Shown one piece after another: positions 3 to 1,835 of a stretch of DNA of 36,851 bases (the stretch's first letter is position 1; each line of letters opens with the position of its first letter). Source of the stretch: Candidatus Thorarchaeota archaeon. GTDB lineage: Archaea; Asgardarchaeota; Thorarchaeia; Thorarchaeales; Thorarchaeaceae. The stretch spans positions 1-36,851 of the forward strand of contig JAGXOC010000014.1 of the NCBI GenBank assembly GCA_019894665.1. Direction: 5' to 3'. Position numbers and translations under genes: made by a program. The notes under the pieces are model-generated. The model was not told the DNA's origin, did not search any database, and saw nothing but the letters and a program-made list of their open reading frames with translations.

Positions 3-1835
3 CTATACACAACAGAAGGTCTTGCTGAAGACACACCTGTTTTTGTTGCAGAGAAACACAAGGTCTTTCATGGATCAGTGGATGGCGATATGCTCCTTCT
101 ACTCGTGACCGATGGACGTGACGAGGACAGAGTAATTCAACACCGTGTTCGCGAGGGATCTGCTCGAGTTTCTACAGCTCTTCGTGGAAACAGTATTGGC
201 TACATCCGAGATAATCTGGATGACATTCTAGGTGAACTCATCTTTACAAGATTCAAAGTCAGCTTCGTAGGGAGTGGTGGTGTAGGTAAGAGTACACTAC
301 TCCGACTTCTATTTGGAAAGGAACCTGCACCTGGAGGCTACACGCCTACCATCAACGTTGCTGTTGATTCATCTGAAACGATACAGTTCGGTACGTTCCT
401 TGTTACCGTCTGGGACTTTGCTGGACAGTCTGTATTCCAAGACCTCTGGAGCTTCTACTTTTCAGGTACAGACGTAATCTTCCTGATTACGGATTCAAGT
501 TTTAGGAACGTGATGCAGACAAAGTCCCTCTTGCGTACCATTCGAAAGGAAGCTCCTGCTGTTCCTCTATTCATAATTGCTAACAAACAGGACTTACCCG
601 AGTCAATGAAAGCTGATAAGATCAAACGACTCTTGGGTGCTCCAACGTTTGCTATGGTGGCCACTGACAAGACCAGACGTGAGGAGTTCATCCGCCTCAT
701 GCTTGAAATGGCTGCTAAGACTGTTGGAGTAACACTTCCAGATTTGCCTATCAGTGAGATGATTACTGTTAGAAGAGGTACTGAAGAAGTAGCCCAACCT
801 GGAACTGCTGGAGCCCCGACCCCCCCCAGAGACAGTGGATTCGAGGACGTGCCATACGCAGATGGCGGTATAGAGGCCATTAGCAAAACACAGATTCCAA
901 CCATAACTGAATCTGTTGCAATAGCTGAAGCTGCGGAAATAACAACCGATACAACCCAACCTGAAACGATAGTGGCACAAACTTTTCCTGACCGCACAAA
1001 GCTCCTTCATTTCTTGCACATCGTACAGAAAGAGGGAATGCCAGATGTTGCATATTCCCTCAAGTATGCTGACGACGAGATTGACCCGAATGCTGTTGCT
1101 TCCCTGATCTCTGCACTTGACTCGTTTGGTGGGATTGATGCAGAACCAGCTGATGGCTCTGGCACTACAGATGCTCTTGAGACCATCGAACATGAAGGAA
1201 ATCTTGTCATGGTCGAGAAGTCCAAGCATTTTGTACTTGCACTCATTGTCACAAATGATAGTGAAGAAGACGTGCAGCGAAGTATTCTAACTTCTCTTTT
1301 GTTTGAGTTTGAACAGAAATATCAGAACGTATGGGACACCTGGGACGGCGACAAGACAATCTTCGAGCCCTCTGTATTCGATGTTCTAACTAAACTGCCA
1401 TTGAAACCAATAAGCTTTGACTACATTGTTCGTGCACGAGAAGCTGGGAAACCACTCCCCTTTGAAAATCGTGATGTGGGTCAAGCTATAGTTGCCGTTA
1501 AAACTGCAATTGAAAGTAATGACACCATTGGTGGTCTTGTGCGAAGCCTTGACTTACCTCGTGAAACCGTTCTTGGTTGCCTTCAGATAATGAGCCAGTT
1601 TGGTTGGATTGACTTTAAGGTTGAGATAGGTCCAACAAGCCATCTCAAGAAAATGGGCACTGTCGATGAGGATACTCAGAAAGCCTATGGGAACGTTGTT
1701 GTCGAGTTTGTTGACCTATGTGATGGTACCATAGCACTCCAAGATGTTGTCCGGAAACTCAACGTCAGTCTTCCAGCTATGAAGTTTGTAGCAACAAAGC
1801 TGGTTCTCGATGGAGTACTCGAGGTTGTAGCTTAG
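3..1835 (+). CDS. Arf/Ras-like small GTPase domain fused to flanking longin/roadblock-like and C-terminal winged-helix-like regions (5' partial; continues off the window)
   Basis: G1 GSGGVGKST, T in YTPTINV, G3 WDFAGQ, G4 NKQD. The frame has no stop upstream of the tracked GTG at 78 back to base 3 (LYTTEGLAEDTPVFVAEKHKVFHGS...), so 78 is not the real start. Confidence 0.85.
   Translation, partial: LYTTEGLAEDTPVFVAEKHKVFHGSVDGDMLLLLVTDGRDEDRVIQHRVREGSARVSTALRGNSIGYIRDNLDDILGELIFTRFKVSFVGSGGVGKSTLLRLLFGKEPAPGGYTPTINVAVDSSETIQFGTFLVTVWDFAGQSVFQDLWSFYFSGTDVIFLITDSSFRNVMQTKSLLRTIRKEAPAVPLFIIANKQDLPESMKADKIKRLLGAPTFAMVATDKTRREEFIRLMLEMAAKTVGVTLPDLPISEMITVRRGTEEVAQPGTAGAPTPPRDSGFEDVPYADGGIEAISKTQIPTITESVAIAEAAEITTDTTQPETIVAQTFPDRTKLLHFLHIVQKEGMPDVAYSLKYADDEIDPNAVASLISALDSFGGIDAEPADGSGTTDALETIEHEGNLVMVEKSKHFVLALIVTNDSEEDVQRSILTSLLFEFEQKYQNVWDTWDGDKTIFEPSVFDVLTKLPLKPISFDYIVRAREAGKPLPFENRDVGQAIVAVKTAIESNDTIGGLVRSLDLPRETVLGCLQIMSQFGWIDFKVEIGPTSHLKKMGTVDEDTQKAYGNVVVEFVDLCDGTIALQDVVRKLNVSLPAMKFVATKLVLDGVLEVVA

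Follow-up and report, generated by a model that had tools for sequence, protein, structure and literature searches.

A longin-flanked small GTPase of Thorarchaeota and its upstream pseudoGTPase paralogue: a putative Rag-like pair

We analysed a 36,851-nucleotide stretch of DNA, referred to below as the window, from Thorarchaeota, which are archaea closely related to eukaryotes, and found that the gene at its start encodes a small GTPase flanked by two predicted longin modules and that a paralogous gene with a degenerate G domain almost always precedes it. Our best reading is that the two genes form one module and would encode a longin-paired, Rag-like heterodimer, analogous to RagA-RagC, with one active and one dead G domain and with an NPRL2/3-like part fused on. 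We give this reading a probability of roughly 0.55. By analogy, the arrangement resembles the nutrient-sensing machinery of animal and yeast cells.

Gene structure and domain order

The open reading frame at window positions 3-1835 (plus strand) encodes the C-terminal 610 residues of a Thorarchaeota protein that is ~650 residues long. Because the window is the entire contig C55 of a fragmented 3.04 Mb genome (G000), the frame is open at its 5' end. The first-pass annotation, which was made from the sequence of the window, had called for the upstream sequence. This sequence exists on contig C85 of the same genome, which overlaps the first 414 bp of the window gene at 99% identity and supplies the missing ~40 N-terminal residues; the N-terminus of the protein read from C85 is MIHNVLLIEKADGNVVVKTRFWKIDFLESDIAEFLAGFRD.... 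The small mismatch between the overlapping ends of C55 and C85 suggests strain variation. The same gene is split at contig ends in independent assemblies (G000:C55/C85, G009:C93/C243 and Thorarchaeota AB_25, L059 and L085), and these recurrent breaks are probably due to strain variation in the conserved G-domain DNA.

Full-length orthologues of 640-680 residues were found in most genomes of the same family. Several statements of the first-pass annotation hold up: the reading frame is real and carries the G1, G3 and G4 motifs, its assignment to Asgard archaea is correct (orthologues with a name come from Asgard MAGs, which with few exceptions are labelled Thorarchaeota), and the two winged-helix-like segments that it had noticed behind the G domain are borne out by the AF2 model and by HTH_NPRL3 matches among relatives. 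From N- to C-terminus the protein consists of a longin, an Arf/Rag-like G domain, a disordered linker, another longin and two winged helices (wH). The individual features are as follows.

3..239, plus strand: the C-terminal two thirds of longin module 1, from the end of helix 1 through strands 3-5 to helices 2-3 (AF2 model of orthologue L054)
G000:C85:415-534, minus strand: strands 1-2 and most of helix 1 of module 1, off the window and read on C85
240..737, plus strand: Arf/Rag-like small GTPase domain (Pfam and TIGR00231)
270..293, plus strand: G1 motif (P-loop) GSGGVGKS, from the sequence
411..428, plus strand: G3 motif WDFAGQ with an invariant catalytic-type Gln, from the sequence; W, D, F, A, G and Q are all invariant in alignment A2
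582..593, plus strand: G4 motif NKQD, from the sequence; invariant in alignment A2
738..1001, plus strand: acidic disordered linker between the G domain and module 2 (pLDDT <50 at orthologue residues 295-374; mean pI 4.3)
831..857, plus strand: conserved linker motif DSGFEDVPY, consensus G[FY]-x-x-VP[YF], from the sequence
1002..1394, plus strand: longin module 2, comprising strands 1 and 2, helix 1, strands 3-5 and helices 2 and 3 (AF2 and hhalign)
1404..1832, plus strand: two winged-helix domains with homology to the C-terminal region of the stand-alone longin-wH proteins (hhalign, HTH_NPRL3)

The G domain shows the marks of a Ras-superfamily small GTPase, namely the G1, G3 and G4 motifs together with family matches. 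It scored 66.2 bits against Arf, 60.2 against Roc, 49.7 against Ras and 22.8 against Gtr1_RagA (cut-off 22) in Pfam, so by sequence it scores better as Arf than as Rag (66 vs 23 bits), and it matched TIGR00231 small_GTP above the cut-off. All three motifs were present in 30 of 31 orthologues, the remaining row being truncated. Since the confidence of the AF2 model is low in this domain (pLDDT ~32-74, orthologue L054), its fold assignment rests on Pfam and on the sequence. The G domain is basic with a mean pI of 9.5, in contrast to the acidic longin modules and the partner's dead G domain (pI 4.3-5.0). The linker is poorly alignable apart from the motif G[FY]-x-x-VP[YF], which was kept in 26 of 31 orthologue linkers.

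Two longin modules flank the G domain

In the AF2 model of orthologue L054 both flanks are predicted with the same eight elements in longin order and with good confidence outside loops. Module 1 comprises strands at residues 2-9 and 15-20, a helix at 28-43, strands at 53-55, 59-66 and 70-76 and helices at 82-102 and 105-119 (pLDDT ~83-92). For module 2 the corresponding strands are 379-388 and 391-399, followed by a helix at 407-420, strands at 440-442, 445-451 and 455-461 and helices at 467-484 and 496-509. The order beta-beta-alpha-beta-beta-beta-alpha-alpha was also predicted for both modules of the upstream partner. By sequence neither module 1 nor module 2 matched a Pfam longin or a PDB longin, and the name longin therefore denotes a predicted topology at the level of the fold. 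Neither module has the roadblock arrangement in the models, that is, an N-terminal helix before strand 1 and one C-terminal helix: strand 1 of module 1 begins at residue 2, and in module 2 strand 1 is preceded by a disordered stretch while strand 5 is followed by two helices.

The first-pass annotation had proposed that longin-like modules flank the G domain, a proposal that flanks of other or unrelated folds would contradict. That test was run and gave the same longin order on both sides, and the proposal is further supported by a profile comparison through an intermediate family. Compared on their own, the two modules gave no significant hhalign match (E=0.25), and the score of the whole modules was not above that of shuffles (p=0.48). 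As neither the pairwise nor the two-profile comparison was significant, we rejected the claim that direct comparison of the sequences proves modules 1 and 2 to be repeats. The bridge is a shorter longin-GTPase family (LG1) found in several Asgard families, whose N-terminal module matched module 1 with E=3.9e-10 and module 2 with E=9.6e-6. With the intermediates merged, the N-side and C-side longin profiles matched over 116 columns (E=1.4e-9), while control comparisons of longin against G or wH profiles gave E values of at least 0.17. At the level of sequence, modules 1 and 2 are thus homologous only by way of this intermediate family. The pattern EK.K...xLxLLxVTD..ED, which had been read as shared by the two flanks, fared less well. 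The two quoted segments scored above shuffles (p=0.0055), but they were hand-picked. The VTD..ED half is in structural register in both modules, running from strand 5 into helix 2 in the model, whereas the EK.K half is out of register, preceding strand 4 in module 1 and ending strand 4 in module 2; the motif alone does not show homology.

The C-terminal half and its stand-alone relatives

Module 2 and the winged helices matched stand-alone proteins of ~280 residues with the order longin-wH-wH, which occur as a tandem pair (SA/SB) across the family. The hhalign E values were 1.9e-12 and 2e-7 for module 2 and 1.2e-19 and 1.3e-17 for the wH part against SA and SB. A joint profile (A4) found matches in 215 of the 228 phylum genomes. 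These profile comparisons make the C-terminal half a homologue of a pan-Asgard longin-wH family. Proteins with an 'NPRL2-like longin domain' are already a named class in Asgard archaea (PMC9834061). The Pfam family HTH_NPRL3 (GATOR1) matched 11 of the 32 proteins in alignment A4 with a best E of 8.7e-9; the window's own C-terminal half gave no NPRL-family match by sequence. A longin followed by winged helices, a feature of NPRL2 and NPRL3, is found in the C-terminal half according to the AF2 model and the homology to SA/SB.

In the genome of the window the tandem longin-wH-wH paralogues lie at G000:C110:6368-8059 (L006, L118) and are kept together across the family. They are a candidate NPRL2/NPRL3-like pair. 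Another protein, of ~1500 aa and encoded on G000:C144 (L023), carries extracellular-type repeats and probably a membrane span, and its tail matches module 2; it is possibly a receptor with the same type of longin.

The upstream partner, a probable pseudoGTPase

In nearly all loci with enough flanking sequence a gene of ~565 residues lies directly upstream in the same orientation. Over 543 columns its profile aligns colinearly with that of the GTPase protein (E=1.4e-13), and its model (mean pLDDT 84.5) shows the same domain order of longin, G-like fold, longin and winged helices. Individual domains matched as well: module 1 against the partner module U1 with E=1.8e-5 (hhalign), the partner's middle domain against G domains with E=1.4e-7 and the two wH parts against each other with E=2.5e-13 (hhalign). 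The best PDB match of the partner's wH part was NPRL2, though weakly (E=0.016). The P-loop was absent from all 28 partner rows and none of them had a G3 or G4 motif in place; G3- or G4-like strings occurred in eight rows, all outside the expected positions. Both genes are under purifying selection, with dN/dS values of roughly 0.05-0.07 for close pairs, which are approximate as dS is near saturation. In a profile search of 228 phylum genomes full partners were found at E<=1e-6 in this family only, and the single match outside it covered 104 positions in a genome of another family (G121). Our search of the openly accessible literature found no paper on Asgard pseudoGTPases.

Linkage of the two genes

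The partner adjoins the GTPase gene directly upstream and on the same strand in 33 of 38 genomes. Three of the five exceptions are at contig ends and one is beside a 100-N gap. The fifth is real: in genome G040 (contig L075) the GTPase gene is relocated and no partner was detected, and the partner may be dispensable or unassembled there. For the fragmented genome G031 we found only partner pieces, located at contig ends on contigs without a GTPase match. Gene order is generally conserved in this region and flanking genes are kept too. A DNA cytosine methyltransferase gene upstream (L094:2414-3571) and a beta-CASP-type nuclease gene downstream (window:1838-3985) are syntenic with the pair in most loci. 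Elsewhere in the window, the list of open reading frames contains a 997-aa receiver-PAS-histidine-kinase-like protein (window:31474-34467, minus strand).

The first-pass annotation had pictured a self-contained GTPase plus platform. This is now doubtful: a paralogous longin-pseudoGTPase-longin-wH gene almost always precedes the GTPase gene, and therefore two chains working together are more likely than a self-contained protein. A self-contained switch would have its longins pair within one chain or in a homodimer, with the upstream duplicate doing a job of its own and being linked by gene order only. Both longin modules do lie in one chain, the GTPase gene stands alone in G040, the conserved surroundings could account for the linkage, and AF2 homodimers of Rag-like fusions have been proposed for MK-D1 (PMC10933270). 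However, purifying selection is strong on the upstream neighbour, which is a paralogue over its full length, and nearly all genomes have either both genes or neither (G040 with the GTPase only and G031 with partner pieces only are the exceptions). Moreover, paralogue pairs recur in the same genomes, as in the SA/SB tandem. We regard a self-contained switch as unlikely.

Comparison with known systems

A Foldseek search with the GTPase model returned RagA and Gtr1 as the best PDB matches over about 370-390 columns, followed by Arfs. The best matches of the partner model were Rags, SEA/GATOR1 subunits, Mon1-Ccz1, CPLANE and BLOC-3. The TM-scores to Rags were low (about 0.2 by query), and because of such low scores the matches reflect shared domain types and not a shared overall arrangement.

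As in RagA/RagC and Gtr1/Gtr2, a G domain is followed by a domain of the roadblock/longin class, there is a paralogous partner, and these proteins are the top Foldseek matches. Unlike in the Rag/Gtr proteins, where a roadblock domain directly follows the G domain, the domain at this place has longin order and stands behind a disordered linker of ~80 residues; there are also an extra longin before the G domain, winged helices at the end and a higher Arf score. Both Rags bind nucleotide, whereas the partner here is degenerate. The C-terminal half shares with NPRL2/NPRL3 of GATOR1 the succession of longin and winged helices and, in the stand-alone relatives, the HTH_NPRL3 matches. The difference is that the longin-wH part is fused behind a GTPase in Thorarchaeota, while the eukaryotic NPRL2/3 are separate proteins acting on RagA. 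The NPRL winged helices mediate protein contacts in GATOR1.

Mon1-Ccz1, CPLANE Fuz-Intu and BLOC-3 consist of paired chains with several longins each, as the two Thorarchaeota proteins would if they associate, and they are among the Foldseek matches of the partner, whose model aligned with Mon1-Ccz1, CPLANE and BLOC-3 chains over 460-609 columns. Those chains are not known to have a built-in G domain, unlike the Thorarchaeota GTPase chain. The pair might serve a different small GTPase as a platform for exchange or activation, with the fused G domain as a permanently bound client or regulatory element. The alignments are in keeping with this, and in known systems GTPases use longin dimers as platforms (PMC10933270). 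We nevertheless consider such a platform improbable, given TM-scores of only 0.14-0.15 by query and a fused G domain that keeps all its motifs and looks like a working switch. DNA binding by the C-terminal domains was considered and is not favoured. The protein would then be a GTP-controlled transcription regulator whose G domain gates DNA binding by the winged helices. Weak matches to DNA-binding wH families, the DNA methyltransferase gene upstream and the common role of winged helices would agree with this, but we consider it improbable: the wH part lacks a basic character (mean pI 6.6, net charge about -0.6; wH2 pI 4.8), and the closest named wH families are the NPRL ones.

Published proteins of Lokiarchaea include fusions of a longin with an Arf-like GTPase and a GTPase that has a longin on one side and a roadblock domain on the other (PMC4917890, PMC10933270), and one MK-D1 Rag-like pair is operon-encoded and was modelled as a heterodimer (PMC10933270, PMC4917890). 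For this reason we see the present system as a variant of a published type and not as new in kind. Like the Lokiarchaea and MK-D1 fusions it joins a G domain to a longin; unlike them, by their published description, it has longins on both flanks, a tail of two winged helices and an operon partner without nucleotide-binding motifs.

Proposed origin and mechanism of the pair

Under the preferred reading of a Rag-like heterodimer, the GTP-switch subunit would be a fusion of a longin-GTPase with an NPRL2/3-like longin-wH-wH protein. The fused gene would then have been duplicated, the upstream copy being an old duplicate that lost its nucleotide-binding motifs. Fusion, duplication and motif loss in the partner are supported. 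The two chains would pair via their longins, module 1 with U1 and module 2 with U2, which would give a heterodimer in which one G domain is active and the other dead. Binding and hydrolysis of GTP would shift the position of the active domain relative to the longin platform and the acidic dead G domain. As a result the linker motif and the winged helices, which may dock other proteins, would become exposed or covered. We infer that the chains pair physically, that there is only one active site, that the winged helices dock effectors and that the pair has any role in nutrient or membrane signalling. The reading is favoured by the longin predictions and the homology of the modules, the colinearity and motif loss of the partner, the gene linkage, purifying selection, the Foldseek matches and the second linked longin-GTPase pair described below. 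The low TM-scores to Rags, the higher Arf score of the G domain, the G040 exception, the generally conserved gene order and the unconfirmed longin in the second pair weigh against it.

A more far-reaching reading, which we think is more probably wrong than right, is that the switch came to share a single polypeptide with the NPRL2/3-like part in Thorarchaeota and that duplication of this fused gene later produced one active and one dead copy. If it is true, the working link between a Rag-like GTPase and an NPRL-type longin-wH protein, whose eukaryotic counterpart is GATOR1 acting on RagA, would be older than eukaryotes and could be approached with two archaeal proteins.

Further longin-GTPase gene pairs

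A 2016 review asked whether operons would reveal the partners of Asgard small GTPases (PMC4917890), and in MK-D1 the small GTPase genes are reported not to be generally in operons with roadblock or longin genes (PMC10933270). In the genomes analysed here linkage is strong, both for the GTPase with its dead paralogue and for a second longin-GTPase with a longin/wH-like gene. The linked genes are concrete protein pairs to purify and bear on whether the Rag-NPRL connection predates eukaryotes.

The second longin-GTPase (285 aa) is unfused and adjoins an upstream gene of ~370 residues in 33 of 35 genomes, with gaps of -1 to 57 bp. This count includes three genomes of two other Asgard families (f4 and f11), a pair in a further family was seen in L189, and the linkage spans at least three Asgard families. 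A longin-like N-terminus was recognized by eye in the upstream gene (LW1); the profile comparison against longins left it unconfirmed, with E values of at least 0.02. In the genome of the window the pair is located as follows.

G000:C395:7185-9139 (L004, L178): second pair, a longin-GTPase beside a longin/wH-like gene

A longin-GTPase with a long acidic tail was also observed at L003:1351-3135 (G000:C381), and the gene preceding it is related to the longin/wH-like neighbour of the other longin-GTPase.
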